A DNA stretch of 42,449 nt from Gammaproteobacteria bacterium (GTDB lineage Bacteria; Pseudomonadota; Gammaproteobacteria; Steroidobacterales; PWYM01), in NCBI GenBank assembly GCA_007127715.1, contig SKYU01000074.1, positions 1-42,449 on the forward strand. Direction: 5' to 3'. Shown here one piece after another: positions 512-42,104 of the stretch. The notes under the pieces were generated by a model. The model searched no databases and was not told the origin of the DNA. It saw only the letters and a program-made list of their open reading frames with translations. Every line of letters starts with the position of its first letter. The first letter of the stretch is position 1. The translations under genes were made by a program, and so were the position numbers.

Positions 512-1186
512 ATGGTGAGCGAGGCCAGGGGCGCGGAGCGGGCACGCCTGTGCTCTGGTGCGGCGGGCCTGGGCATCACGCTTGCGCCGGCCGTGGCCGA
601 GCAGCTTCTGGCGCTGCTGGATGAGCTTGCCCGCTGGAACCGGGCATACAACCTGACGGCCGTCCGTGAGCGCGCCGAGATGCTCACTCACCACCTGCTG
701 GACAGCCTGAGCGTGCTGCCCGCCCTGACCGGTGGCCGGGTGATCGATGTCGGTACCGGCGCGGGCTTTCCCGGGCTGGTGCTGGCGCTGGCCGATCCCG
801 ATCGCCGTTACACACTGCTCGACAGCAACGGCAAGAAGATCCGCTTCGTCGAGCATGCGCTGCGTACCTTCGGCATCCGGAATGCCTGCGCGGTCCAGTC
901 GCGGGTCGAGGACTACCGGCCGACGCCCGGCTTTGATACCGTCGTCGGCCGCGCGTTCGCCCCGACCGCGCGCTTTGCCGCCAGCTGCCGGCACCTGCTG
1001 GCCCCGGGCGGCGAGATCGTGATGATGAAGGGACGGCATGCCGTCAGCGAGCTCGCAGGGCTCCCGGGCGACTGGCGGGTCACCGTGGAGCCCGTGGAGG
1101 TCCCCGGCCTGCACGAGGCGCGCCACCTCGTGAGGCTGCGGCTTGCGGACGACGCGCCCGAATCTCCACTGCAGGAACGAACATGA
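512..1186 (+). CDS. rsmG: 16S rRNA (guanine527-N7)-methyltransferase RsmG (GidB)
   Basis: WNRAYNLTAVRERAEMLTHHLLDSLSVLP...VIDVGTGAGFPGLVLA motif. Start taken at ATG 512, downstream of the terminator; the ORF-track start at 425 would run through the terminator. Confidence 0.95.
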   Translation: MVSEARGAERARLCSGAAGLGITLAPAVAEQLLALLDELARWNRAYNLTAVRERAEMLTHHLLDSLSVLPALTGGRVIDVGTGAGFPGLVLALADPDRRYTLLDSNGKKIRFVEHALRTFGIRNACAVQSRVEDYRPTPGFDTVVGRAFAPTARFAASCRHLLAPGGEIVMMKGRHAVSELAGLPGDWRVTVEPVEVPGLHEARHLVRLRLADDAPESPLQERT

Positions 1187-1977
1187 CAAGAACCATTGCG
1201 GTGGCCAACCAGAAAGGCGGTGTCGGCAAGACGACCACGGCCATCAACCTGGCCGCTTCCCTGGCCGCCACCCGTCGGCGCGTGCTGCTGGTCGATCTGG
1301 ACCCGCAGGGCAACGCCACCATGGGCTGCGGTATCGGCAAGAACGATCTCGAGCGCACCAGCTGCGATGTGCTGCTGGGCGAGGCCACCGTCGCCGAGAC
1401 CGTGGTGGATGTCGAAGAAGGCGGTTTCCGGCTGCTGCCAGGTAACGACGACCTCACCACGGCCGAGGTCCAGCTGCTGCAGGAGATCGGCCGGGAGATG
1501 CGCCTGCGCAAGGCCCTGGAACCGGTGCGCGGCGACTACGATTACATCCTGGTCGACTGCCCCCCGTCGATCAACATGCTGACCCTGAACGCCCTGACCG
1601 CCGCCGACGGCGTGCTCATCCCCATGCAGTGCGAGTACTACGCGCTGGAGGGGCTGTCCGCGCTGGTGCGGACCATCGAACAGATCCGCGACAGCGTGAA
1701 CCCCGGCCTGCAGATCGAGGGTCTGCTGCGCACGATGTTCGACCCCCGCAACAACCTGGCCAACGAGGTCTCGGCCCAGCTGATCCAGCACTTCCGCGAC
1801 AAGGTCTACCGGACGGTCATTCCCCGGAACGTCCGTCTTGCCGAGGCGCCGAGTTTCGGCAAGCCCGCGCTCTACCATGACAAGTACTCGCGCGGGGCGC
1901 TGGCCTACCTGGCCCTGGCGGGGGAGCTCAATCGCCGCGAGGACGAGCGTCGCCGGGCGTCCGGGAGCAGCGAATGA
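1183..1977 (+). CDS. parA: Chromosome partitioning ATPase ParA (Soj)
   Basis: Deviant Walker A KGGVGKTTTAINLAASLA; LVDLDPQGNATMG; ATGA overlap with rsmG stop. Confidence 0.97.
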   Translation: MTRTIAVANQKGGVGKTTTAINLAASLAATRRRVLLVDLDPQGNATMGCGIGKNDLERTSCDVLLGEATVAETVVDVEEGGFRLLPGNDDLTTAEVQLLQEIGREMRLRKALEPVRGDYDYILVDCPPSINMLTLNALTAADGVLIPMQCEYYALEGLSALVRTIEQIRDSVNPGLQIEGLLRTMFDPRNNLANEVSAQLIQHFRDKVYRTVIPRNVRLAEAPSFGKPALYHDKYSRGALAYLALAGELNRREDERRRASGSSE

Positions 1978-2035
1978 GCTCGACCGGGCTCTGCTACACT
2001 ACCGCGCCTTTGCTGTCAGGCAGACAGGCTGAGCG

Positions 2036-2920
2036 ATGACATCCAGGAAAAAACGCCTCGGCCGCGGCCTCGACGCGCTGCTGGGGGGGCAGGCACCGCG
2101 GGCCGATCAGGCTGGGGGCGAAAGCGCGGACGGGGAGCTGCGGCGTATTCCGGTCGAGCATCTGCAGCGTGGCCGTTACCAGCCGCGCAGCGACATGCGC
2201 ACCGAGACGCTGGAGGAGCTCGCCCAGTCGATCGCCGCCCAGGGCGTGGTCCAGCCCATCGTTGTGCGGCCGATCCCGCAGACCCCGGCCGGCGTGCGTT
2301 ACGAGATCATCGCCGGGGAACGCCGCTGGCGGGCTGCCCAGCTGGCCGGTCTCGGCGAAGTGCCGGCGCTGGTGCGCGAGGTCCCCGACGAGGCGGCCGT
2401 CGCCATGGCGCTGATCGAAAACATCCAGCGCGAGAACCTCAACCCCCTCGAGGAGGCGCGTGCCCTGTCGCGGCTGATCGAGGAATTCGACATGACTCAC
2501 CAGGCCGCCGCCACAGCGGTCGGCCGTTCTCGCGCGGCGGTCAGCAACCTCCTGCGGCTGCTCGAGCTCGACGACGAGGTGAAGACCCGTGTCGAGCGTC
2601 GGGAGATCGAGATGGGGCACGCCCGGGCGCTGCTCGGGCTGCCGGCGCCAACCCAGCGCGAGGCGGCCCGGCAGGTCGTGAAGGGCCAGCTCTCTGTCCG
2701 CGCCACCGAGCAGCTCGCCCGCCGTCTGCAGAAAGGCGAGTCCCGACCGGCGACCCCACCGGCCCGTCCGGACCCCGACATCACGCGTCTGGAGACCGAT
2801 CTCGCCGACCGTCTCGGCGCGAGGGTCCGGCTCCAGCACGGCAAGGCCGGCGCGGGCCGGCTGGTGATCAGCTACCACAGCGTCGAGGAGCTCGAGGGCA
2901 TCCTGCGGCACATCCGCTGA
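2036..2920 (+). CDS. parB: Chromosome partitioning protein ParB (Spo0J)
   Basis: RLGRGLDALLG N-terminus, GERRWRAAQLAGL, ALIENIQRENLNPLEEA ParB box, HTH. Confidence 0.97.
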   Translation: MTSRKKRLGRGLDALLGGQAPRADQAGGESADGELRRIPVEHLQRGRYQPRSDMRTETLEELAQSIAAQGVVQPIVVRPIPQTPAGVRYEIIAGERRWRAAQLAGLGEVPALVREVPDEAAVAMALIENIQRENLNPLEEARALSRLIEEFDMTHQAAATAVGRSRAAVSNLLRLLELDDEVKTRVERREIEMGHARALLGLPAPTQREAARQVVKGQLSVRATEQLARRLQKGESRPATPPARPDPDITRLETDLADRLGARVRLQHGKAGAGRLVISYHSVEELEGILRHIR

Positions 2921-2946
2921 GCCCCATGGCCTGCCCTCGGCAACAA

Positions 2947-2975
2947 TTGAAGCAGTGCAACAAAGTCTATATACT
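2947..2975 (+). promoter_or_regulatory. Sigma70-type promoter for atp operon
   Basis: TTGAAG (2947-2952), 17-bp spacer, TATACT (2970-2975), just upstream of atpI; expected TSS about 2981-2983. Confidence 0.75.
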
Positions 2976-3014
2976 GCCGCGCCTCGGACAGGGCGGCAGG
3001 GCGACTTGATAGCC

Positions 3015-4176
<1,162 letters not shown>

Positions 4177-4215
4177 GCGCCTGCGGCGCCCGTCCCTTTC
4201 ACGCTTGTCTTTTAA

Positions 4216-4524
<309 letters not shown>

Positions 4525-4548
4525 GCCGGCGGATCCGTTCGGTCCTGA

Positions 4549-4572
4549 CACCATTACGGGCACCATTACGGG
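4549..4572. repeat. Perfect 12-bp tandem duplication in atpE-atpF spacer
   Basis: CACCATTACGGG x2 at 4549-4560 and 4561-4572. Confidence 0.98.
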
Positions 4573-4581
4573 AGCTGTAAC

Positions 4582-5055
4582 GTGCAAGTCAGTCTAGGCA
4601 CCCTCATCGCGCAGGGCATCTCTTTCTTCGTCTTCATCTACGTGACGATGAAGTTGGTGTGGCCGCCCTTGGTGAAGGCCATGGCCGAGCGACGCGCCAA
4701 GATCGCCGATGGCCTGGCTGCCGCAGAGCGTGGCAAGAGCGAGCTCGAGGAGGCCGGAACGCAGGCCGATGCCCTGGTTCGCGCCGCGCGTGATCAGGCC
4801 GCGGAAATTCTCGAGCAGGCCAACCGCCGTGCTGCCAGCATCGAAGCGGAAGCCAAGGCCGATGGCGAGCGCGAGCGCGAGCGTCAGCTTGCGGCCGCGC
4901 GCGCCGAGATCGAACAGGAACTCACCCGGGCGCGCGACGAACTGCGTGGCCAGGTGGCGACCATCGCCGTGACCAGCGCCGAGAAGATCCTCGGTCGCGA
5001 GATCGACGCGGGCAAGCACCGCGACATTCTCGATAAGCTGGCCACGCAGATCTGA
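4582..5055 (+). CDS. atpF: F0F1 ATP synthase subunit b
   Basis: N-terminal TM then long charged coiled coil with A/E/R content; position between atpE and atpH; GTG start. Confidence 0.95.
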   Translation: MQVSLGTLIAQGISFFVFIYVTMKLVWPPLVKAMAERRAKIADGLAAAERGKSELEEAGTQADALVRAARDQAAEILEQANRRAASIEAEAKADGERERERQLAAARAEIEQELTRARDELRGQVATIAVTSAEKILGREIDAGKHRDILDKLATQI

Positions 5056-5063
5056 GGCCGGTC

Positions 5064-5624
5064 ATGGCTGATCACAAGACCGTTGCCCGCCCCTACGCAA
5101 GCGCCCTGTTTCAGGTCGCACGCGAGCATGGCGAGCTCGCACGATGGTCTAACGCGCTGTCGGTGCTTGCATCCGCCCTGGGTGACGAAGGCCTCCAGGC
5201 GTGGCTGGACAGCCCGCGCATGACTGATGCCGAGCGCGTCGCCCTGCTGATGGATATCGCGCAGGCGGCAGATCCCGAAGCTGGCGCCGTGCTGGCCGAG
5301 GACCGCGGAGCCAACTTCCTGAAGCTGCTGGCGGAAAACGACCGCCTGGCGATACTGCCGGATGTCGCGCTGCTGTTCGAGGAACAGCGCCACCTGGAAG
5401 AAAACACCATGGACGTGACAATGGTCGCGGCCAGCGATGTGGACGATGCCACGAAGGCGGCCATCAGTGCGGCACTGGAATCGCGGCTGGGCCGCACGGT
5501 GCGCCTCTCGGTGACCGTGGATCCCGCCCTGCTGGGCGGGGCGGTCATTCGAGCCGACGATCTGGTGATCGACGCCTCGCTGAAGAGCCGGCTCGCCAAG
5601 CTCGCGACCTCACTCATTCGATAA
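5064..5624 (+). CDS. atpH: F0F1 ATP synthase subunit delta
   Basis: ARPYASALFQVARE N-terminus; C-terminal VDPALLGGAVIRADDLVIDASLKSRLAKL. Confidence 0.96.
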   Translation: MADHKTVARPYASALFQVAREHGELARWSNALSVLASALGDEGLQAWLDSPRMTDAERVALLMDIAQAADPEAGAVLAEDRGANFLKLLAENDRLAILPDVALLFEEQRHLEENTMDVTMVAASDVDDATKAAISAALESRLGRTVRLSVTVDPALLGGAVIRADDLVIDASLKSRLAKLATSLIR

Positions 5625-5642
5625 ATTCCCGAGGAATCCACC

Positions 5643-7187
5643 ATGGCCTTGAAGGCTTCTGAAATCAGCCAACTGATCAAGGAACGCATCGAGAAATTCG
5701 ACGCTGCGGCTGAGGCACGTGATGTCGGTACCGTCATCGGCGTCGCCGACGGCATCGTGCGTATCCATGGCCTGCGCGGCGTGGCCTACGGCGAGATGCT
5801 CGAGTTCCCGGGCGAGACCTACGGGATGGCGCTCAACCTCGAGCAGGACTCCGTGGGTGCCGTCATCCTCGGCAGCTACCAGCACATCTCCGAGGGCGAC
5901 GAGGTCAAGACCACCGGGCGCATCCTGGAGGTGCCGACGGGTGAGGCTCTGCTGGGTCGCGTCGTCGACTCACTCGGCAACCCCATCGACGGAAAGGGTC
6001 CGCTGAAAGGCGATCCGGTCATGTCGCCGATCGAGAAGATCGCCCCGGGGGTCATCGACCGTCAGTCCGTCTCCCAGCCGGTGCAGACGGGTCTCAAGGC
6101 CATCGATGCAATGGTACCCGTCGGCCGCGGCCAGCGAGAGTTGATCATCGGTGACCGTCAGACCGGCAAGACAGCCGTCGCCGTGGACGCGATCATCAAC
6201 CAGAAGGGCACGGGCATCAAGTGCATCTATGTGGCGGTCGGGCAGAAGAACTCTTCGGTCGCCAACGTGGTGCGGAAGCTCGAGGAAGAGGGCGCGATGG
6301 AGCACACCATCGTGGTTTCCGCCTCCGCCTCGATGTCCGCCGCGATGCAGTACATCGCGCCCTACTCGGGCTGCGCCATGGGCGAGTACTTCCGCGACCG
6401 TGGCCAGGATGCACTCATTATTTACGATGACCTGACCAAGCAGGCCTGGGCTTACCGGCAGGTGTCGCTGCTGCTGAAGCGCCCGCCCGGACGCGAAGCC
6501 TATCCGGGTGACGTCTTCTACCTGCACTCGCGTCTGCTCGAGCGCGCCGCGCGCGTGAACGCCGACTACGTCGAGAATTTCACCAACGGCGACGTCAAGG
6601 GCCAGACCGGCTCGCTCACGGCGCTGCCGATCATCGAAACCCAGGCGGGCGACGTCTCGGCGTTCGTGCCCACCAACGTGATTTCCATCACCGACGGGCA
6701 GATCTACCTCGAGACCGACCTGTTCAATGCGGGTATCCGACCCGCGATCAACGCAGGCCTCTCGGTCTCGCGCGTCGGCGGTGCTGCCCAGACCAAGATC
6801 ATCAAGAAGCTCGGTGGCGGTGTCCGCCTGGCGCTCGCACAGTATCGCGAACTCGCCGCTTTTGCCCAGTTCGCCTCGGACCTCGATGCCGCCACGCGCC
6901 GTCAGCTCGAGCGCGGTCGTCGGGTCACGGAACTGATGAAGCAGCCGCAGTACGCGCCGCTGTCCGTCGCCGAGATGGCCGTCTCGCTGTACGCCGTCAA
7001 CGAAGGCTTCCTCGATGATGTCGACGTCGAGAAGATCGTCGAGTGCGAGCGTGCCATGCACGCCCATGTGCGGGCGAACTTCGGCGAGCTGTTCGAGCGG
7101 ATCAATACCTCCGGTGACTACAACGATGAAATCGCCGACGGCCTGAAGCAGGCCATCAGTGACTTCAAGGCCAACGGCGCCTGGTAA
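5643..7187 (+). CDS. atpA: F0F1 ATP synthase subunit alpha
   Basis: [20 protein letters not shown]-loop; full-length 514 aa; [17 protein letters not shown]. Confidence 0.98.
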
Positions 7188-7220
7188 GCGCGCCCGCGCG
7201 AATACGATCACGGGAATCCC

Positions 7221-9486
<2,266 letters not shown>

Positions 9487-9501
9487 GCGGGGTCCTGCAG
9501 C

Positions 9502-9924
9502 ATGGCCAGCATCCACGTCGACATCGTCAGTGCCGAGGGCGAGATCTTCGAAGGCGACGCCGCGATGGTCTTCGCGCCCGCGCGCGAAGGCGAGATCGGC
9601 ATTGCGCCGCGCCATGCGCCGCTGCTCACCACGCTGGTGCCGGGCGAGGTCCGGGTCCAGGCCGAGGATGGCGAGGAGCGGCTGTTCTTCGTCACCGGCG
9701 GCATCCTGGAGATCCAGGGCCATCTGGTCACCATTCTTGCCGAGACCGCGCTTCGCGCCGACGAACTCGATGAAGCCGCCGCCCTGGAAGCCAAGCAGCG
9801 GGCCGAACAGCTCCTGGCTGATCGGCCCGAGGGCATCGATCTTGCGCAGGCCCAGCAGGAACTTGTCGAGGCCGCGGCGCGCTACCAGGCCGCTCAGAAG
9901 CTCAAGGGCCGCGATCTCCGCTGA
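9502..9924 (+). CDS. atpC: F0F1 ATP synthase subunit epsilon
   Basis: VDIVSAEGEIFEGDAAMVFAPAREGEIGIAPRHAPLLTTL. Confidence 0.96.
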   Translation: MASIHVDIVSAEGEIFEGDAAMVFAPAREGEIGIAPRHAPLLTTLVPGEVRVQAEDGEERLFFVTGGILEIQGHLVTILAETALRADELDEAAALEAKQRAEQLLADRPEGIDLAQAQQELVEAAARYQAAQKLKGRDLR

Positions 9925-9990
9925 ACGGGCGCGGGCGCGCTGTGACCTGGCGCCCCCCACGCCAGCAGTGTCTGCGCTAACATCCCGCCC

Positions 9991-11382
9991 ATGACCGAAG
10001 TGACTCCGCTCAGCGTGGTCGTGCTCGCGGCCGGTGCGGGCAAGCGCATGCGCTCACCCCTGCCGAAAGTGCTCCAGCCTCTGGCAGGCCGGCCACTGCT
10101 CTCCCATGTGCTGCAGTGCGCTGATGCGCTGCGCCCTGATGCCATCCACGTCGTCTACGGCCACGGGGGCGAGGCGGTCCGCGCGCGCTTTGCCGATGTC
10201 GCCTCCCTGCGGTGGGTCGAGCAGGCCGAGCGCCTTGGCACCGGGCACGCGGTCGCCCAGGCCATTCCCGAGATTGCCGATCACCACAGGGTGCTGGTGC
10301 TCTGCGGCGACGTGCCGCTGCTCCAGCCCGACACGCTCGAGGCGCTGCTGAGCGGCAGCGCGCAGGGGGTGGGCGTGCTCACGGTCGAACTGCCCGATGC
10401 CACCGGCTACGGGCGCATCGTCCGCGACGCCGCGGGCCGGGTCACCGCCATCGTCGAGGAGCGCGACGCCGACGAGGCCACCCGGGCGCTTCGCGAGATC
10501 AACACCGGCGTGATCGCGGCCCCGGCCGCCCGGCTGCGGGGCTGGCTCTCCCGCCTGCGCAACGACAACGCCCAGGGGGAGTATTACCTCACCGACATCA
10601 TCGCCATGGCGGTCGCCGAGGGGATGCCGGTGGTCGGCATCCGTGCCGGCGATGCCGACGAGGTCGCGGGCATCAACACCCGCCAGCAGCTGGCCGATGC
10701 GGAGACCGCGCTCCGCCGCCGTGCCGCCCGCATGCTGATGGCGCAGGGCGCGATCCTCGCCGACCCCGCCCGCATCGACGTCCGTGGGGAAGTGACCGTG
10801 GGTCAGGACGTGTTCCTCGATGCCAATGTCACGCTCGAAGGGCGGGTCGAGCTGGGCGATGGCGTACGCGTCGGGCCGAACGTCGTGCTGCGCGACGTCA
10901 CCCTCGGCGCGGGTACCGAGGTCCACCCGTTTTCCCTGCTTGAGGGCGTGAGCTGCGGTACGCACTGCCAGCTCGGCCCCTACGCGCGCGTGCGGCCTGG
11001 CAGCCAGCTTGCCGACCGGGTGAAGATCGGCAATTTCGTCGAAGTGAAGAACAGCCGCCTGGCCGATGGCGCCAAGGCCAACCACCTGAGCTATGTGGGC
11101 GATGCGGAGGTCGGGCGTGACGTGAACATCGGTGCCGGCACCATCACCTGCAACTACGACGGCGCCAACAAGCATCGTACGGTTATTGGCGATGGCGCCT
11201 TCATCGGTTCGGGCGTCGAGCTCGTCGCCCCCGTGGAGATCGGTGCGGGCGCCACCATCGGCGCAGGCTCCACCATCGCCAAGGATGCCCCGGCGGGCCA
11301 GCTGACCCTTGCGCGCACCCGCCAGACCACCTTGCGCCACTGGCAGCGCCCCACCAAGAAGCGGCCCGACCCGGGCCCCTGA
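9991..11382 (+). CDS. glmU: Bifunctional UDP-GlcNAc pyrophosphorylase / GlcN-1-P N-acetyltransferase
   Basis: VVLAAGAGKRMRSPLPKVLQPLAGRPLL; hexapeptide repeats and NFVEVKNSRLADGAKANHLSYVGDAEVG. Confidence 0.98.
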   Translation: MTEVTPLSVVVLAAGAGKRMRSPLPKVLQPLAGRPLLSHVLQCADALRPDAIHVVYGHGGEAVRARFADVASLRWVEQAERLGTGHAVAQAIPEIADHHRVLVLCGDVPLLQPDTLEALLSGSAQGVGVLTVELPDATGYGRIVRDAAGRVTAIVEERDADEATRALREINTGVIAAPAARLRGWLSRLRNDNAQGEYYLTDIIAMAVAEGMPVVGIRAGDADEVAGINTRQQLADAETALRRRAARMLMAQGAILADPARIDVRGEVTVGQDVFLDANVTLEGRVELGDGVRVGPNVVLRDVTLGAGTEVHPFSLLEGVSCGTHCQLGPYARVRPGSQLADRVKIGNFVEVKNSRLADGAKANHLSYVGDAEVGRDVNIGAGTITCNYDGANKHRTVIGDGAFIGSGVELVAPVEIGAGATIGAGSTIAKDAPAGQLTLARTRQTTLRHWQRPTKKRPDPGP

Positions 11383-11400
11383 CACCCCTGCGGAGGCCCC

Positions 11401-13233
11401 ATGTGCGGCATCGTCGGAGCAATCGCTGAGCGTAACGTCGTGCCCATCCTGCTCGAGGGCCTGCGCCGCCTCGAGTATCGCGGCTACGACTCGGCCGGCC
11501 TCGCGGTCGTGCAGAATGCCACTCTGGAACGCCGTCGCAGGGTTGGCAAGGTCCGTGAACTGGAGGACGCGCTGTCCGCGGCGCCGCTGGCCGGCGCCAT
11601 CGGCATCGCCCACACGCGTTGGGCGACCCACGGCGCCCCTACCGAAGACAACGCCCACCCGCACATGTCGGCGCCCGGTGTCGCCGTGGTGCACAACGGT
11701 ATCATCGAGAACCATGCACTGCTGCGAGAGGAGCTGCAGCGCGCGGGCTTCACCTTTACCTCCGATACCGACACGGAAGTGATCGCCCATCGCGTCGAGC
11801 AGCATCGTCGCAGCAGCGGCGACCTCGTCTCAGCCGTTCGGGACACGGTCGCCGAACTCGACGGCGCCTACGCCCTGGTCGCCATGAGCGTGGCCGAACC
11901 CGACACGCTGGTCGCCGCGCGTGCCGGCTGCCCGGTGGTGATCGGTCTTGGCCTCGGCGAGAACTTCATCGCCTCGGACGTGGCTGCCCTGCTGCCGGTC
12001 ACCCGCCGGTTCATCTTTCTGGAGGAAGGAGACCTGGCGGTCGTCCGCCGGACCGCCATCGAGATCTTCGACGCCGCCGGCCACAAGGTCGAGCGCCCGG
12101 TCCGCGAAAGTGAGCTCGCCGCCGACGCGGTCGAGCGCGGGCGCTTCCGTCACTACATGCAGAAAGAGATCCACGAGCAGGCCGGGGCCGTCGCCCGGAC
12201 GCTCGCAGATCGCATCGATGGCGGACGGGTCGTCGCCGAGGCCTTCGGCGCCGAGGCCGCTACGCTCCTGGCCAAGGTGCGTCAGGTTCACATCGTCGCC
12301 TGCGGCACGAGCTACCACGCCGGCCTCACGGCCCGCTACCAGATCGAGGAGCTCTGCCGTATTCCCGTGAGTGTGGAGATTGCCAGCGAGTATCGATATC
12401 GCTCGCCCGTGGTGCCGGCCGATACGCTGTTCATCGCCATCTCCCAGTCAGGCGAGACCGCCGATACGCTGGCGGCACTGCGGCTGGCCAAGACTCTCGG
12501 CTACCTCTCGACGCTTGCGATCTGCAACGTGCCCGAGAGCTCCCTGGTCCGAGAGGCGGAGCTTTGCCTGATGACCCACGCCGGGCCCGAGATCGGTGTC
12601 GCCTCGACCAAGGCCTTCACCACCCAGCTGGCCGCGCTGGCTTTGCTGACCCTGGCGCTCGCCGCCGCCAACGGGACCAGCCCGGAGACCGAGCGTACGC
12701 TCACCACGCAGCTGGCCGAGCTGCCGGGCCTGATCGAGCAGACCCTCGCGCTGGACGAGGCTATCGCCAAACTGGCAGAAGCCTTCGTCGACAAACATCA
12801 CGCACTGTTTCTCGGCCGCGGTGCCCTGAACCCTGTGGCGATGGAAGGTGCGCTGAAGCTGAAGGAGATTTCCTACATCCACGCTGAGGCCTATCCCGCC
12901 GGCGAGCTCAAACACGGCCCCCTGGCCTTGGTGGATGAGGACATGCCCGTAGTCACGGTTGCACCAAACAACGAGCTGCTCGAGAAGCTGAAATCGAACC
13001 TGGAGGAGGTACGCGCCCGCGGAGGCCAGCTGTTCGTCTTTGCCGATCCGCGCGTGACCTTCGAATCCTCACCGGGCGTCACGGTCATGCGCCTGCCCGC
13101 GCATGCCGAGCCGCTGCAGGCGCCACTGCTCTACACGCTCCCGCTGCAGCTGCTGGCCTACCATGTCGCGGTGCTGAAGGGTACGGATGTCGACCAGCCG
13201 AGGAACCTCGCGAAGTCGGTGACGGTGGAGTAG
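11401..13233 (+). CDS. glmS: Glutamine--fructose-6-phosphate aminotransferase (isomerizing)
   Basis: [35 protein letters not shown]; two SIS domains; C-terminal [15 protein letters not shown]. Confidence 0.98.
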
Positions 13234-34160: not shown

Positions 34161-35117
34161 ATGAGCGCAAAACCCCGGGTGGTGTTTGCCGGGACCCCCG
34201 AATTTGCCGTGCCTTCGCTGCAGGCCCTGCTCGCGGACGGCTGGCCGGTGGTCGGCGTGCTCACGCAGCCGGACCGCCCTGCCGGGCGCGGGCGGAGACT
34301 CGTGCCAGGGCCGGTCAAGCGTGCCGCGCTGGCTGGCGGGTTGCCGGTCCTCCAGCCTGCCGGGTTGCGCGATGCCGAGAGCCGCGCGAGGGTTGCCGCG
34401 CTGGCGCCGGAGCTGCTGGTGGTGGCGGCTTATGGCCTGCTGCTGCCGCAGTCGGTGCTCGATCTGCCGCGCCTGGGGTGCATCAACGTCCACGCCTCGC
34501 TGCTGCCCCGCTGGCGGGGCGCAGCCCCCATCCAGCGGGCCATCCTGGCCGGTGACCGCGAGACCGGCATCAGCATCATGCGCATGGTGCGTCGGCTCGA
34601 TGCCGGCCCGGTTCACCTGATGCGCCGCCTGGCGATTGGCGATCAGGAAACCGCTGGCGAGTTGCATGACCGTCTGGCGCGCCTTGGCGGTGAGGCTCTT
34701 GTCGCCGCGCTGCCCGGGATCGTCGCCGGTTCGCTGCCCGCCGAACCGCAGCCGGAGACAGGCGTGACCTACGCCGCCAAGCTGGAAAAAGACGAGGCCA
34801 GGCTGGACTGGTCGTTGCCTGCGGCACGGCTGGCCCGGCAGGTGCGCGCCTTCAATCCCTGGCCGGTTTCCGAAACCAGCCTTGATGACGTTCGGGTGCG
34901 CGTCTGGCGCGCGCGGGCCCTGGCGGGTGACCCGACCACGGAGGACGGGCCGGCCATGCCGGGCACGCTGCGCGTGGACGAGGGCCGGCGCCTCAAGGTC
35001 GCCACCGGCGAGGGCTGGCTCGAGCTGCTGGAAGTGCAGTGGCCGGGCAAGCGCGTCATGACCGCTGCGCAGGCGCTGTCCGGCCGCGGCGACCTCGATG
35101 GCCGGCGCTGCCGGTGA
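34161..35117 (+). CDS. fmt: Methionyl-tRNA formyltransferase
   Basis: VVFAGTPEFAVPSLQALL...TQPDRPAGRGR; GCINVHASLLPRWRGAAPIQRAILAGD. Confidence 0.97.
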   Translation: MSAKPRVVFAGTPEFAVPSLQALLADGWPVVGVLTQPDRPAGRGRRLVPGPVKRAALAGGLPVLQPAGLRDAESRARVAALAPELLVVAAYGLLLPQSVLDLPRLGCINVHASLLPRWRGAAPIQRAILAGDRETGISIMRMVRRLDAGPVHLMRRLAIGDQETAGELHDRLARLGGEALVAALPGIVAGSLPAEPQPETGVTYAAKLEKDEARLDWSLPAARLARQVRAFNPWPVSETSLDDVRVRVWRARALAGDPTTEDGPAMPGTLRVDEGRRLKVATGEGWLELLEVQWPGKRVMTAAQALSGRGDLDGRRCR

Positions 35118-36433
35118 CGGGTTCGGCGATCGGGGTGGCACCCCGCGCGCAGGCGGCACGGGCGGTCCATGCCGTGCGCGTGCAGGGTCGCAGCCTGGAC
35201 GATGCGCTGGCCGAGGCCGCGACCGAGGTGGCGCTGAGGGACCGCCCGCTGCTGCAGGCGCTGGCCTACGGCACCGTTCGCTGGCATCGCCGGCTTGCCG
35301 GTTTCACCGACCGTCTGCTGACCCGGCCGCTGCAGCCCCGTGATGCCATCCTCGCCGACCTGCTCGCGGTCGGCCTGTTTCAGCTGGAAGCGATGCGGGT
35401 CCCGCCGCGCGCGGCTGTGCACGCCACCGTGGCGGCCACCGAAGTCCTCCACCGGCCACGGGCCCGCGGACTGGTCAATGCGGTGCTCAGGCGGTTCCAG
35501 CGCGAGCGCGACAGCCTGGTGAGGGCGGTGGATGCCCAGCCCGCCTTCCGCCACGCCTTTCCGGACTGGCTGTATGCCGCCCTGGCCGAGGACTGGCCCG
35601 AGGAGGTCGAGGCCCTGGCGACCGCCAGCAATGCCGTGCCGCCGATGTGGCTGCGCGTCAACGCGGCCCGCGGCAGTCGCGAGGCCTACGCCGACCGGCT
35701 GGCCGCCGCCGGACATGCCGCCCGCTCCCATCCCGAGGCGCCGGAAGCCTTGTGCCTGGAGACACCCGCCGAGGTTGCGGCCCTGCCGGGCTGGGCGCCG
35801 GGGGATGTCTCGGTGCAGGATGCGGCAGCGCAGCTCGCGGCGCGGCTGCTGGCGCCCGCGCCGGGTCAGCGGGTGCTCGATGCCTGCGCGGCGCCCGGAG
35901 GCAAGACGGCCCATCTCCTGGAGACCACGCCGGGGGTCGCCGAGCTGGTGGCGCTGGATGTCTCGCCCGGCCGCCTTGCGGAACTCGAGCGGGGGCTGGC
36001 CCGTCTCAGCCTGCGGGCACGCTGTCTCGTCGGGGATGCCGCCCACCCTGCGGCCTGGTGGGACGGTCGGCCTTTCGATCGCATCCTGATCGATGCACCG
36101 TGTTCCGCCACGGGGGTGATCCGGCGCCATCCCGACATCAAGCTGCTTCGCCGCCCGGAGGATGTCGATCGCCTGGTCGGTCTGCAGGCCGCGATCCTGG
36201 ATGCGCTGTGGCCCCTGCTGGCGCCTGGCGGACGCCTGGTCTATGCCACCTGCTCGGTGCTCCGGCGGGAGAATGACAGCCAGATTGCAGCTTTTTTACA
36301 ACGAACACCCGACGCGATACTGGCGCCCGACAGTGGCGTAATCTCCCGGCCAGGCAGGCAGATACTGACCGGCGAGACGAACATGGACGGCTTCTATTAT
36401 GCTTGTCTGCAACACTCGTTGACGGAAGCCTGA
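35114..36433 (+). CDS. rsmB: 16S rRNA (cytosine967-C5)-methyltransferase
   Basis: DACAAPGGKTAHLLE, DAPCSATGVIRRHPDIKLLR, ATCSVLRRENDSQIAAFL; GTGA overlap with fmt stop. Confidence 0.95.
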   Translation: MTGSAIGVAPRAQAARAVHAVRVQGRSLDDALAEAATEVALRDRPLLQALAYGTVRWHRRLAGFTDRLLTRPLQPRDAILADLLAVGLFQLEAMRVPPRAAVHATVAATEVLHRPRARGLVNAVLRRFQRERDSLVRAVDAQPAFRHAFPDWLYAALAEDWPEEVEALATASNAVPPMWLRVNAARGSREAYADRLAAAGHAARSHPEAPEALCLETPAEVAALPGWAPGDVSVQDAAAQLAARLLAPAPGQRVLDACAAPGGKTAHLLETTPGVAELVALDVSPGRLAELERGLARLSLRARCLVGDAAHPAAWWDGRPFDRILIDAPCSATGVIRRHPDIKLLRRPEDVDRLVGLQAAILDALWPLLAPGGRLVYATCSVLRRENDSQIAAFLQRTPDAILAPDSGVISRPGRQILTGETNMDGFYYACLQHSLTEA

Positions 36434-36439
36434 GCCCCC

Positions 36440-37045
36440 GTGACCGCCGCCTGTACCCGCTGGTTCCCTGGACATGGCGTCCTGCCGATGCTGCGGGTCG
36501 TCGTGTGTCTGGTGGCGCTGGGGCTGCTGGCCCCGTCGCCCGCCCAGGCCGTGGAGGGCCGCTTCGAGGTGCGTTCGGCCGCGCTGGAGCTGATCGATGG
36601 GGTGTATTTCCTCGACGCGCGGGTGCAGTACCGGCTCAGCACCCAGGCGCTGAATGCGCTGGAAGCCGGGGTCGCGCTTACCATCGAGCTGCAGCTCGAG
36701 GTCGAGCGCCGACGGCGTCTCCTGCCCAACCAGACGGTCGCGACGCTCAGCCAGCGTTACCAGCTGCAGTATCACGCGCTGTCGAACCGCTACGTGCTGC
36801 GCAATCTCAACAGTGGCGAGCAGGAATCGTTTGCCACCCTGTTCGCGGCGCTCAATCAGCTTGGACGGGTGGTCGATCTGCCGGTCATCGACGCCGCCCT
36901 GCTCGACTCCGAGAGCCGCTACCAGTTCCGCCTGAGGGCCGTGCTCGATACGCGGGAATTTCCTGGCCCGCTGCGCCTGCTGGCGTTCTGGGCGGACGGC
37001 TGGCGCATCGAGAGCGACTGGTTCCGATGGCGGCTGGACGACTGA
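36440..37045 (+). CDS. DUF4390 domain protein, secreted
   Basis: Signal peptide then EGRFEVRSAALELIDGVYFLDARVQYRLS...; conserved position between rsmB and ntrY-like kinase. Confidence 0.85.
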   Translation: MTAACTRWFPGHGVLPMLRVVVCLVALGLLAPSPAQAVEGRFEVRSAALELIDGVYFLDARVQYRLSTQALNALEAGVALTIELQLEVERRRRLLPNQTVATLSQRYQLQYHALSNRYVLRNLNSGEQESFATLFAALNQLGRVVDLPVIDAALLDSESRYQFRLRAVLDTREFPGPLRLLAFWADGWRIESDWFRWRLDD

Positions 37046-39258
37046 GACGGCGTCTGTATGCCGCGCTGATGCTGGTCGGCGCGGTGCTGTGGCTGAGTGC
37101 GTTGCTGCTGCTGGCCCAGACCGCGCAGAGCTCGGCCCAGTTCGACCGGCTGCAGAACTGGATCCTGCTGGTGAATGCCGCCGGGGTGGTCGTGCTCCTG
37201 CTCCTGATTGCGGCAAGCCTGATCCGGCTGGTGCGCGACTATCGCGGGCACGTTGCCGGCGCCCGGCTGAAAGCCCGGATGCTCGGCACCTTCATCGTGC
37301 TGGCGGTCCTCCCACTGGTGCTGGTGTACTACTACGCCGTGCAGTTCATCAACCAGGGCATCGACAGCTGGTTCAACGTCGATGTCGAGCAGGGCCTGAG
37401 CAACGCCATCGAACTCTCCCGCCTGTCGCTGGACCTCCGCACGCGCGATTACCTGGAGCGCACCCAGACCATGGCCCGGGAAATGGCCTCCATGGACAAC
37501 TCCGAACTGCTTCTCGACCTCTCTCGCCTGCGCCGTGACCATGGCGCCACCGACATCACCGTGTTCGGCCAGGCGAGCCGCATCATCGCCACCAGTTCCG
37601 CGGAGGCGATGATGGCCGTGCCGGCTCTCCCCTCGGACGAGGTGATGTTCCAGCTTCGCCAGCGCCGACCCTTCGTCAACCTCGAGCCGGCACCCGACGG
37701 GGCCTTCCAGGTCCGGGTCATCGTGCCCGTGCCCGTGGAGCAGCCCGGTGGCGAGCCGCGGGTCGTCCAGGCGTTCTATCCGCTGGTCGATCGTCTCGCG
37801 GGCCTTGCCGAAAGCGTGGAGCAGTCCTACACGCGCTTCCGGGAGCTCGCCTTCCTGCGTGCGCCACTGAAATACACCTTCACCCTCACCCTGACACTGG
37901 TGCTGTTGCTCTCGCTGCTCGGTGCCGTGTACGGCGCGCTGTTTTTTTCAAGGCGACTGGTCGCGCCGATCCAGCAGCTGGTGGCCGGAACCCGGGCGGT
38001 CGCGCGCGGGGATTTCGACACGCGCCTGCCCGTACCCGCCCGCGACGAGATCGGGTTCCTGGTCAACGCCTTCAATGACATGACCCGCCGGCTGTCGCGC
38101 GCGCGGGAGGAGGCGCAGCTCAGCGAACAGCGCCTGGAAAGCGAGCGCACGGGACTCGCCATCATTCTCGCGCGCCTGTCCACCGGCGTGCTGGCCCTGG
38201 AGCCGGACCTGACGATCCGCGTGGCCAACCAGGCAGCCGGTGGCATTCTTGACGTGGACGTGACCCGCCTGGCCGGTACGCCGCTGGCCGAGGCGACCGG
38301 CAGTGCCTCGCCTCTGTTCGCACAGTTCGCAGGGCTGGTGGCCCGGCATCTGGCCGCGGGCGAGCATGAGTGGCGGGAACAGGTGGTGCTGCAGGGTGAG
38401 AGCGGGCGACGGGTACTGATGTGCGCGTGCACGCTGCTGCCCGGGGACGAGGCGGACCAGTCCGGACATGTCGTGGTGTTCGACGACATCACCACGCTGC
38501 TGCAGGCGCAGCGCGATGCCGCCTGGGGCGAGGTCGCCCGGCGCCTGGCGCACGAGATCAAGAATCCGCTCACACCCATCCAGCTTTCCGCGGAGCGCCT
38601 GCGAAGGCGCTATCTCGGCCAGCTCGCAGAAGAGGACGGACAGCTGCTTGATCGCGCGACCCACACCATCGTGCAGCAGGTCGAAGCAATGAAGCAGATG
38701 GTCAACGCCTTCAGCGAATACGCGCGCGCGCCGGACATGAGCTTCGCGCCGCTCGACCTCAATGCGCTGGTGACCGAGATTGCCGAGCTCTATCGGGTTC
38801 AGCCTGAAGCCGCCGTCATCACGCTGGCGCTCGACCCCACCGTGTCCCGGATCGAGGCCGACGCGGGGCGGGTCCGCCAGATCCTCCACAACCTGCTGCG
38901 CAACGCACTCGAGGCCCTCGATGGCCAGGGGGACGGCGAGATCACCATCAGCACGGCCCGGGTGGGCGAGCCGGTGGCCTGCGTGCGCCTGTGCGTCCAC
39001 GATAACGGCCCGGGGTTTCCGCTGGATGCCGTTGCCGAGGTGTTCGAGCCCTATGTCACCAGCAAGCCCAAGGGTACCGGCCTGGGTCTCGCCATCGTCA
39101 AGAAGCTCGTCGAGGAGCACGGTGGGCGCATCGAGGCGCGCAATGACGAGCAGGGCGGCGCGCGCGTGAGTATACTGCTGCCTGTCGATGAGACAGCCCG
39201 GGAAGCCATGCTGTCGAATCAGTCATGGCGAAGGGAACAACGGCGGGAGCGCGCATGA
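37027..39258 (+). CDS. NtrY-like membrane sensor histidine kinase (HAMP, PAS, HisKA, HATPase)
   Basis: N-terminal TMs, HAMP, LAHEIKNPLTPIQLSAERLRRRY H-box, NLLRNALEAL N-box, DNGPGFP, GTGLGLAIVKKLVEEHGG. Confidence 0.94.
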   Translation: MAAGRLRRRLYAALMLVGAVLWLSALLLLAQTAQSSAQFDRLQNWILLVNAAGVVVLLLLIAASLIRLVRDYRGHVAGARLKARMLGTFIVLAVLPLVLVYYYAVQFINQGIDSWFNVDVEQGLSNAIELSRLSLDLRTRDYLERTQTMAREMASMDNSELLLDLSRLRRDHGATDITVFGQASRIIATSSAEAMMAVPALPSDEVMFQLRQRRPFVNLEPAPDGAFQVRVIVPVPVEQPGGEPRVVQAFYPLVDRLAGLAESVEQSYTRFRELAFLRAPLKYTFTLTLTLVLLLSLLGAVYGALFFSRRLVAPIQQLVAGTRAVARGDFDTRLPVPARDEIGFLVNAFNDMTRRLSRAREEAQLSEQRLESERTGLAIILARLSTGVLALEPDLTIRVANQAAGGILDVDVTRLAGTPLAEATGSASPLFAQFAGLVARHLAAGEHEWREQVVLQGESGRRVLMCACTLLPGDEADQSGHVVVFDDITTLLQAQRDAAWGEVARRLAHEIKNPLTPIQLSAERLRRRYLGQLAEEDGQLLDRATHTIVQQVEAMKQMVNAFSEYARAPDMSFAPLDLNALVTEIAELYRVQPEAAVITLALDPTVSRIEADAGRVRQILHNLLRNALEALDGQGDGEITISTARVGEPVACVRLCVHDNGPGFPLDAVAEVFEPYVTSKPKGTGLGLAIVKKLVEEHGGRIEARNDEQGGARVSILLPVDETAREAMLSNQSWRREQRRERA

Positions 39259-40610
39259 CGGCGTCCAGGATTCTTGTCGTCGATGACGAGGCGGATATCC
39301 GCACCCTGATTCAGGAAATCCTCTCCGAGGAGGGTTACGCCGTGACCGTGGCCGCCAATGCCGCGGACGCGCGCGCCGCGGCCGAGGCGGACGGCTTCGA
39401 TCTGGTACTGCTGGACATCTGGATGCCCGACACCGACGGCATCACGCTGTTGCGCGAATGGGCAGAGGCGGATGTGCTCAAGTGTCCCGTGGTCATGATG
39501 TCCGGTCATGGCACGGTCGACACCGCCGTGGAGGCCACCCGCCTCGGTGCCGTGGATTTCATCGAGAAACCCCTGTCACTGACCAAGTTGCTGCGCACTG
39601 TCGAGCGCAGTCTCGAGGAAGGCGCCCGGCCCCGTGCCGGCGGGGCAGCCGGTCGCGGCGCACTGCCCGAGATGCTGGTCCCGGTCGGGCGCAGCCGCAC
39701 CATGCAGACCCTGCGCGATCATGCCCAGCGGATCGCACCGCATGACGCCCCGGTCACCATTTTTGGCGAGCCGGGCACCGGTCGGGAGGCCTTTGCCCGG
39801 CATATCCACGCAATAGGCCCGCGGGCCAAGGCTCCCTGGGTCGGGGTGGTGGCCGCGTCACTGACGGCCGAAACAGCCGCCACGCAGCTGTTCGGCACCC
39901 CGGAGGCGCCCGGGCTGCTTGAGCGGGCTGCCGGCGGCGTGCTGTTCATCAACGATCTGTCCAGCCTGGGCAACATGGCCCAGGGGCTGCTGTTCTCCGC
40001 CCTGGAGCAGGGGTCCTGGACGCCGGTCGGAGCCACGCAGGCACGTGAGCTCGATCTGCGCCTGCTCTGCTCGGCCCCTCCGGAGTTCGAGGCGCGTCGC
40101 GAGGGGTTCCGCCAGGACCTCTACTCGCGCCTCACCGTACTGACCCTCAGGGTGCCGCCGTTGCGCGACTACGCCGAAGACGTGCCGGATCTGCTGCGTC
40201 ATTTCGTCGACCGCCTCATCGATGCCGAGGGACTGCCGCTGCGGCGCTTCAGCATCGCGGCGCAGAATCGGCTGCGCAATTACCCCTGGCCGGGCAACGT
40301 CCGGGAGCTTCGCAACCTGGTGCACCGGTTGCTGATCCTCGGTGGCGACGAGGAGATTTCACTGGCCGAGATCGAGGCCGAGCTGGAGGTCGCGGCCTCG
40401 GCCAGCGAACCGTTGGTGAAGCAGGACCTGCTGGCCATGCCCCTGCGCGAGGCCCGGGAACACTTCGAGCGCGCCTACCTGCAGCAGCAGCTTCAACTCT
40501 GCGGCGGCAAGGTCGGGCAGCTTGCGAAGCGGGTGGGTATGGAGCGGACCCACCTCTACCGGAAGCTGCGCTCGCTCGGCGTCGACTTCCGTCAGTCCGT
40601 GGACGACTGA
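39255..40610 (+). CDS. NtrX-like response regulator with degenerate AAA+ domain and Fis-type HTH
   Basis: Receiver ILVVDDEADI/LLDIWMPDTDG/EKPL; AAA+ relics GEPGTGRE, FINDL, FRQDLYSRL, NYPWPGNVRELRNLVHR; HTH GGKVGQLAKRVGMERTHLYRKLRSLGV. ATGA overlap with kinase stop at 39255. Confidence 0.92.
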   Translation: MTASRILVVDDEADIRTLIQEILSEEGYAVTVAANAADARAAAEADGFDLVLLDIWMPDTDGITLLREWAEADVLKCPVVMMSGHGTVDTAVEATRLGAVDFIEKPLSLTKLLRTVERSLEEGARPRAGGAAGRGALPEMLVPVGRSRTMQTLRDHAQRIAPHDAPVTIFGEPGTGREAFARHIHAIGPRAKAPWVGVVAASLTAETAATQLFGTPEAPGLLERAAGGVLFINDLSSLGNMAQGLLFSALEQGSWTPVGATQARELDLRLLCSAPPEFEARREGFRQDLYSRLTVLTLRVPPLRDYAEDVPDLLRHFVDRLIDAEGLPLRRFSIAAQNRLRNYPWPGNVRELRNLVHRLLILGGDEEISLAEIEAELEVAASASEPLVKQDLLAMPLREAREHFERAYLQQQLQLCGGKVGQLAKRVGMERTHLYRKLRSLGVDFRQSVDD

Positions 40611-41971
40611 CTGTCATCGGCCGCTTCTGCGGCCGGCATCCGTTCGCGAAGCGCCTCAGGCGGCATGGTGTCGCGCTTGAGGATGTTGATGATCGCCGCC
40701 TGTACGGCCGGGTCCGGGATCGGTCCCGACGAGACGATCATCGACGTGCCTGGCACGAAGCGCTGCGGATCGGCGATGTAGGCCGCCAGCGTCTCCTCTG
40801 TCCATACCAGCCCCTCGCGCCCGGCGCGCGCCAACGCCGGGCTGTAGTGGAATCCCGGCACCGTGCCCGCCTGCTGACCGAAAATGGCATGCAGGTTGGG
40901 ACCGACCTTGAACCGCCGGTCCCCGGCGGTGACCGTGTGGCAGAAGGTGCACCACTTGTAGAGATCCTCGCGGATCTGGCGCTCGAAAGCCGTCTCTGGA
41001 TAGACGACCACCGACATCCGGACCTCGGCATGCCAGACACGGTCGTCCTCGACCGCCACCACCTCCCCACGTGGCCAGGGGGTCACCCTGAACTGCTGGT
41101 AGGGACCCAGTGCGCCGACCGTCACCAGGGCCAGTGCCGCCACCGGGGAGAGCAGCCGTGCCATGCCCCCGGGGCCGCGCGCCGTCTCCCGCTGCTGCAG
41201 CGGCGGAGGGACGAGGCGTTCGGGGAAGTCGGTCGGGCCACCACGCGTGGGCGCCTGGACCACGACCGTCGAGTCATGGCGGCTGCGGTGCAGCAGGGTG
41301 CCGGCCAGCCAGACCAGGCCCATCAGGACGGCAAACACCGCCAGAGCAGGGGGGCCGGGTTCCGGGCCGCCAAAGGTCGCGAGCGCGTAGACCGTGGAGC
41401 CTAGCGAGACCAGTACGAAGGCGGCGAGCCCCGGTGGCAGCAGGACGAACAGGCCGCGGCCATGGAACAGCTTGCCCCAGGCGGCGGCCAGCAGGGCGCC
41501 GAGCGCGAGCAGCGTGATCATGAAACCCGCGCTGGAGTGGAAGTATCCGGAGAACTGCCAGAGTGCACGGCTCTCGCCGAGCAGCGGCGGCAGAGGGATG
41601 GGTCCGAGATGCAGGCGCATGCCCTCACCCCAGCCCCAGCCCAGTCCCAGCACGGGCGCCACGGCCAGGATGAGCAGAATGCCGAGGGCCACGGTCCGGC
41701 CCCAGAGCCAGTATCCTGGCGGGACGCCGGTACCGGGACGGGCCCCGCGAGCCTCCCGCCACCAGACCCAGAGGCGCCAGAGTGCCAGCGCGAAAAGTAC
41801 CGCGCCGACGAGGAAATGCCAGCCCCTGAGCTCGTCGCGCAGCGGCAGGGCGCGGTCGGTCCGCGCCTTGACGATGGTGACCCAGGAATGGGCGAGGTAG
41901 GCCATGGCAAGCAGCCAGTCCAGTGCGTGGCTTAGACGGCTGCGCGCCGCGGGGGGTGTCCGGGAGCTCAT
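40592..41971 (-). CDS. Cytochrome b561-like membrane domain fused to C-terminal class I cytochrome c
   Basis: b561-like His-containing TMs (LSHALDWLLAMAYLAHSW, GWHFLVGAVLFALALWRLWVW, GYFHSSAGFMI); heme c site WCTFCHT with VGPNLHAIFGQQAG and VPGTSM (Met ligand). Confidence 0.85.
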   Translation of the reverse strand: MSSRTPPAARSRLSHALDWLLAMAYLAHSWVTIVKARTDRALPLRDELRGWHFLVGAVLFALALWRLWVWWREARGARPGTGVPPGYWLWGRTVALGILLILAVAPVLGLGWGWGEGMRLHLGPIPLPPLLGESRALWQFSGYFHSSAGFMITLLALGALLAAAWGKLFHGRGLFVLLPPGLAAFVLVSLGSTVYALATFGGPEPGPPALAVFAVLMGLVWLAGTLLHRSRHDSTVVVQAPTRGGPTDFPERLVPPPLQQRETARGPGGMARLLSPVAALALVTVGALGPYQQFRVTPWPRGEVVAVEDDRVWHAEVRMSVVVYPETAFERQIREDLYKWCTFCHTVTAGDRRFKVGPNLHAIFGQQAGTVPGFHYSPALARAGREGLVWTEETLAAYIADPQRFVPGTSMIVSSGPIPDPAVQAAIINILKRDTMPPEALRERMPAAEAADDSQSSTD

Positions 41972-42104
41972 CGGGTGGCCCTGCGAGTGGCTGGAGGGTT
42001 CATGAATCTTAGCCGTCCCGGCGCGCGCACAGGTCTGGACCGGCCGGTCAACAAGCTTCCTGTCCACCAGGCAGATGGGTGGCCCGCAGCGGTTCGTGGC
42101 CCGA

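Follow-up and report, generated by a model that had tools for sequence, protein, structure and literature searches.

The window analyzed here is a stretch of 42,449 nucleotides (positions 1 to 42,449 of contig SKYU01000074.1, assembly GCA_007127715.1) from a Gammaproteobacteria bacterium that GTDB places in Steroidobacterales, PWYM01, and whose draft genome is 90% complete in 217 contigs. It carries, in this order, fmt, rsmB, a DUF4390 gene (plrP), the gene of an NtrY-type histidine kinase, and the gene of a response regulator with a degenerate AAA+ domain (Table 1). The arrangement rsmB-plrP-plrS-plrR has been described in beta- and gammaproteobacteria, where PlrP has been suggested to act on the kinase as the third member of the system (PMC13001219). 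The regulator open reading frame extends from 39225 to 40610 on the forward strand, and the ATG at 39255 is its probable start, since in a congener the frame is closed by a stop codon shortly before the matching ATG. This ATG overlaps the stop codon of ntrY (ATGA, 39255 to 39258), and plrP in turn ends beyond the inferred start of ntrY (overlap at 37027 to 37045), which suggests translational coupling of plrP-ntrY-ntrX. The kinase boxes were described as intact in the initial annotation, and they are (H box HEIKNP, N box NLLRNALEAL, G boxes DNGPGF and GTGLGL).

Consecutive parA-parB, atp operon genes, glmU, and glmS occupy positions 1183 to 13233, and the block continues to fmt-rsmB-plrP-ntrYX; it is apparently an origin-proximal region of the chromosome. 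The trkA gene that follows the regulator in Bordetella is not found downstream of ntrX here, because the next gene lies on the opposite strand. That gene (40592 to 42067, reverse strand, convergent with ntrX) encodes what looks like a b-type cytochrome membrane domain, a weak Pfam match, fused to a C-terminal c-type heme domain (CTFCHT) that has an NCBIfam match to cytochrome c-550.

Table 1. Features of the rsmB-plrP-ntrY-ntrX locus (positions in the window)
Feature	Position	Strand	Basis
rsmB, 16S rRNA methyltransferase, conserved upstream neighbor	35039-36433	+	NCBIfam RsmB above cutoff
plrP-type gene, periplasmic DUF4390 protein	36440-37045	+	PF14334, 150.7 bits
ntrY/plrS-type histidine kinase	37027-39258	+	PF19312, HAMP, HisKA, HATPase_c; start inferred
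ntrX/plrR-type response regulator	39255-40610	+	ORF and Pfam domains; 451 aa
Receiver domain	39270-39602	+	PF00072
Phospho-acceptor Asp codon	39414-39416	+	Present in every aligned ortholog covering the site
Degenerate AAA+ (Sigma54_activat) core	39684-40148	+	PF00158, 99.5 bits
Walker A GEPGTGREA	39765-39791	+	Arg codon (39783-39785) where Lys is expected
Shortened L1 without GAFTGA, 12 residues TPEAPGLLERAA between LFG and GG	39897-39932	+	Sequence
Walker B region GGVLFINDLSSL (LFINDL; D to N, E to D)	39933-39968	+	Sequence
Degenerate sensor I RLLCSAPPEF	40059-40088	+	Sequence and clade conservation
Arginine-finger segment FRQDLYSRL	40107-40133	+	Sequence
AAA+ lid with strongly conserved QNRLRNYPWPGNVREL	40164-40406	+	PF25601 (AAA_lid_14), clade alignment
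Fis-type HTH	40455-40571	+	PF02954 (HTH_8); most conserved domain of the clade

The regulator matches Response_reg, Sigma54_activat, AAA_lid_14, and HTH_8 in Pfam, and its receiver, AAA+ domain without GAFTGA, and Fis-type HTH follow the order seen in Brucella NtrX. Its gene lies directly after that of an NtrY kinase, with rsmB and plrP upstream, as in the NtrYX loci of beta- and gammaproteobacteria. The best NCBIfam model is the NtrX equivalog NF051870, at 374 bits against a curated cutoff of 600 bits, which places the regulator in the wider NtrYX (NtrX/PlrR) family and outside that equivalog. It lacks what marks a canonical bacterial enhancer-binding protein (bEBP), namely, GAFTGA in L1, the Walker A Lys, the Walker B Asp-Glu pair, and the sensor I Thr-Asn pair. 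An AlphaFold2 model has a mean pLDDT of 87.7, mostly above 90 in the AAA+ core, with an uncertain arrangement of the domains (pTM of 0.57). The core fold is thus predicted to be intact, so that nucleotide binding would still be possible. By both sequence and fold, the best PDB matches are the Brucella NtrX structures with ATP and ADP (5m7n, 5m7o, and 5m7p), and in a structure search with the predicted model, the AAA+ domain superposes on the cores of FleQ and FlrC at about 2 Å.

The substitutions that the initial annotation had read in the AAA+ domain are all present: Arg for Lys in Walker A at residue 177 from the probable start, a change shared with relatives of the same clade; Asn for Asp and Asp for Glu in Walker B; and RLLCSAPPEF in place of RVIAATN at sensor I. 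The L1 segment is indeed 12 residues long and without GAFTGA, but the yardstick needs correction, since the usual length among 216 NtrX orthologs is 16 residues, and the additional loss of four is common to some relatives. The phospho-acceptor Asp, the Fis-type HTH, and FRQDLYSRL had been described as retained, and all three are there; the final Arg of FRQDLYSRL, however, is not a trait of this lineage, being His in four congeners and Arg in only 13 of 86 clade members. Errors or pseudogenization could be suspected in a draft genome of this kind. A sequencing error, frameshift, or pseudogene is nevertheless so improbable that it can practically be dismissed: the same substitutions recur in the four congeners, which speaks against sequencing errors, and the Lys-to-Arg change is found across family-level groups of the order. 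The frame is open, and within the genus, dN/dS is 0.06 to 0.15 for the whole gene and 0.07 to 0.25 for the AAA+ core, values that are not those of a pseudogene. The ntrX gene is under purifying selection.

In bEBPs, the GAFTGA loop contacts σ54 and the Walker residues drive ATP hydrolysis. The fate of both was followed in orthologs drawn from the order of the window, from a sample of the class, and from contigs of named genomes. The regulator is present in 170 of the 274 sampled genomes of the class, and GAFTGA occurs in none of the 216 aligned gammaproteobacterial NtrX orthologs; the alignment shows that it is absent from Brucella NtrX too. NtrX proteins without this motif have already been published for Caulobacter (PMC10274813) and for Thioalkalivibrio, a gammaproteobacterium (PMC5744179). 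Loss of GAFTGA is therefore old, and already known to mark the entire NtrX family. The proposal of the initial annotation that this regulator does not activate σ54 is backed by the comparison, as a property of the family and not of this gene in particular.

That the regulator still uses some other surface to activate σ54, either by itself or in rings shared with a canonical bEBP, is very improbable. The genome does contain rpoN, for which the initial annotation had proposed a search, and at least six other bEBPs with GAFTGA, GGTL(F/L)LDE, and Lys P-loops. The presence of rpoN is no argument for such activation, because bEBPs with intact motifs coexist in the genome; these also indicate that the motif loss is specific to the ntrX gene, whose Sigma54_activat score of 99.5 bits compares with 200 to 256 bits for seven other bEBPs of the genome. 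Besides the absence of GAFTGA from every ortholog, two genomes, G236 (98% complete) and G040 (88% complete), keep the regulator without σ54 and without any other bEBP above the cutoff. Their P-loops are wrecked (GEPGCEF and GEAGTDKEE), and receiver and HTH are preserved in both.

A further genome without rpoN (G097, 99% complete, regulator 61% identical) was set aside as evidence for σ54 independence, because its bEBP L232 keeps an intact GAFTGA, so that the assembly may simply lack its rpoN. Equal caution is due for G144, G267, G313, G242, G243, G234, and G251, all of which retain many strong Sigma54_activat proteins. The genome of the window encodes a second bEBP-like AAA+ protein (L008, G000:C161:4760-5257; 658 aa) with GPTGSGKT and GGTLLLEE, in which the pattern used found no GAFTGA-like motif.

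In a FastTree phylogeny from which the P-loop columns were left out, the Walker A Lys is replaced by Arg in 85 of the 86 orthologs of a single clade (support of 98). This clade consists of the order of the window, with Steroidobacteraceae, Woeseiaceae, and Rariloculus among its named members, together with one Natronospirales genome and two other near relatives. Parsimony over the whole tree requires 11 changes between Lys and non-Lys, which implies about ten more losses of Lys outside the clade, some of them to Leu, Ile, Gln, or Asn. The Lys, Asp, Glu, and both Arg residues are all kept in only 11 of 213 orthologs, and loss of the Lys showed no significant correlation with the other catalytic losses in phylogenetically independent pairs. 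No earlier report of a clade-wide conserved arginine P-loop was found in the literature searched, in a search that was not exhaustive; this P-loop with its decayed hydrolysis residues, set in a graded series leading to domain loss, appears to be the new part of these observations.

Among the 242 AAA+ columns of the clade alignment, the G, E, G, G, and R of the P-loop rank between 1 and 27 in conservation, and the Walker B Asp/Glu, sensor I Thr/Asn, and arginine-finger positions rank between 119 and 241, with the sensor I Asn position at 241. Together with the dN/dS values, this indicates a functional protein in which the hydrolysis residues are no longer maintained and the arginine P-loop is. 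The main rival, which we regard as unlikely, denies the domain a functional role: nucleotide binding and hydrolysis would both be irrelevant, and the AAA+ domain would be an inert remnant heading for the deletion seen in betaproteobacteria. This reading would fit with the AAA+ core being the fastest-evolving folded domain (mean column entropy in the clade of 1.56 bits for AAA+, 0.87 for the receiver, and 0.42 for the HTH), with the wrecked P-loops of G236 and G040, and with the absence of the domain from beta-type regulators (PMC13001219). Indeed, in two genomes with the order plrP-ntrY-ntrX (G164 and G280), the regulator consists of receiver and HTH only (234 to 240 aa), which shows that such a system can do without an AAA+ domain. 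The domain is also shortened in part in L252 (G316:C89, ORF residues 161 to 368), a possible intermediate in domain loss that has the P-loop GESGSGRE and the same gene order. Within the clade, however, the P-loop GE.G.GR is nearly invariant, and its Arg is spelled by six codons (CGC, CGG, CGT, CGA, AGG, and AGA), which points to a residue that is actively kept; drift would not give such a pattern. The AAA+ lid is conserved as well. The conservation of the arginine P-loop thus argues against an inert domain within the clade, but not across the family as a whole.

A missing GAFTGA does not by itself mean that ATP is no longer used, since the Caulobacter NtrC, which lacks the motif, depends in vivo on residues of both Walker A and Walker B (PMC10274813). 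This precedent raises the alternative that the regulator still hydrolyzes ATP and requires this at σ70 promoters, as proposed for that protein, and the Walker B catalytic Glu is kept in 48 of the 86 clade members. We consider this quite improbable, given that the Walker A Lys is missing clade-wide, that most members have also lost sensor I, the arginine finger, and the Asp of Walker B, and that the protein of the window is without Lys, Asp, and Glu together. With Lys gone from Walker A, Asp and Glu gone from Walker B, sensor I lost, and the arginine finger missing in relatives, ATP hydrolysis by the regulator is very probably absent, though an Arg P-loop may still support it at a slow rate.

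Several known systems share part of this organization. Brucella abortus NtrX has the same receiver-AAA+-Fis HTH architecture, with 39% structure-aligned identity, no GAFTGA, and the C-terminal motifs PLREARE-FE and GMER in common; it differs in keeping the Walker A Lys, Walker B LYLDE, and FREDLFHRL, and the alphaproteobacterial ntrYX adjoins ntrBC and not rsmB-plrP (PMC13001219). Bordetella PlrSR and other betaproteobacterial NtrYX systems have the gene order rsmB-plrP(DUF4390)-ntrY-ntrX (PMC13001219) and a closely similar receiver and HTH, but their regulators are without any AAA+ domain. The NtrC proteins of Rhodobacter capsulatus and Caulobacter are AAA+ response regulators that act at σ70 promoters without the σ54 loop (PMC10274813). 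They belong to another clade and have another partner kinase; the Caulobacter protein keeps and needs the Walker A Lys and Walker B Asp, and that of R. capsulatus needs ATP binding rather than hydrolysis (PMC10274813). The c-di-GMP-binding regulators VpsR and FleQ have the AAA+ bEBP fold, and VpsR works with σ70 (PMC9303241), but their N-terminal signaling differs, and control by c-di-GMP is theirs. In FleQ, the c-di-GMP pocket is formed by LFRS, an RN after Walker A, and ExxxR (PMC9303241).

Taken together, the best explanation, in which we have considerable confidence, is that the product of this rsmB-plrP-ntrY-ntrX locus is a regulator of the NtrX/PlrR type that would bind DNA under the control of phosphorylation, independently of σ54 and without hydrolyzing ATP, the AAA+ domain serving as a structural or nucleotide-sensing module. 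NtrY would phosphorylate, or dephosphorylate, the receiver Asp, and PlrP would modulate the kinase; the phosphorylated regulator would then bind DNA through its intact Fis HTH and regulate σ70-type promoters. Modulation of the kinase by PlrP and DNA binding by NtrX are taken from the literature on relatives, and the sequence state, clade-wide conservation, purifying selection, locus context, and predicted fold come from the present analysis. The comparative evidence also backs the suggestion of the initial annotation that the protein may be a phosphorylation-controlled DNA binder. Contact with σ54 would be impossible without GAFTGA. The AAA+ domain may have been retained as a folded dimerization or linker module, and a nucleotide may still bind to its conserved arginine P-loop, whether for structure or for sensing. 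We infer σ54 independence, absence of hydrolysis, action at σ70 promoters, and nucleotide binding from these data. The NtrX site proposed earlier, GCAn9TGC (PMC7240162), is not enriched in the window (20 observed versus 21.8 expected), and no target was found with it; a consensus scan of the locus found no σ70 promoter-like sites.

The living NtrX proteins form a graded series, from those in which GAFTGA alone is missing (Brucella), through those with decaying hydrolysis residues (most gammaproteobacterial orthologs) and those with the Lys replaced by a fixed Arg (the order of the window), to those in which the AAA+ domain is wholly gone (beta type). This series is natural material for asking what role an AAA+ domain has once σ54 remodeling is lost. 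More tentatively, and with somewhat less than even confidence, we propose that in this large clade an AAA+ enhancer-binding ATPase became a nucleotide-sensing, non-hydrolyzing regulator, with an invariant P-loop Arg for the catalytic Lys, and that the clade would preserve an intermediate on the path from an NtrC-like σ54 activator through NtrX to the beta regulators without AAA+. For annotation, the automatic label "sigma54-dependent regulator" is wrong for this protein in the 170 sampled genomes that carry it. Separately, one contig titled Rhodospirillaceae (L094) encodes a regulator that the tree places within the gammaproteobacterial arginine clade, and the title of this contig is probably wrong.
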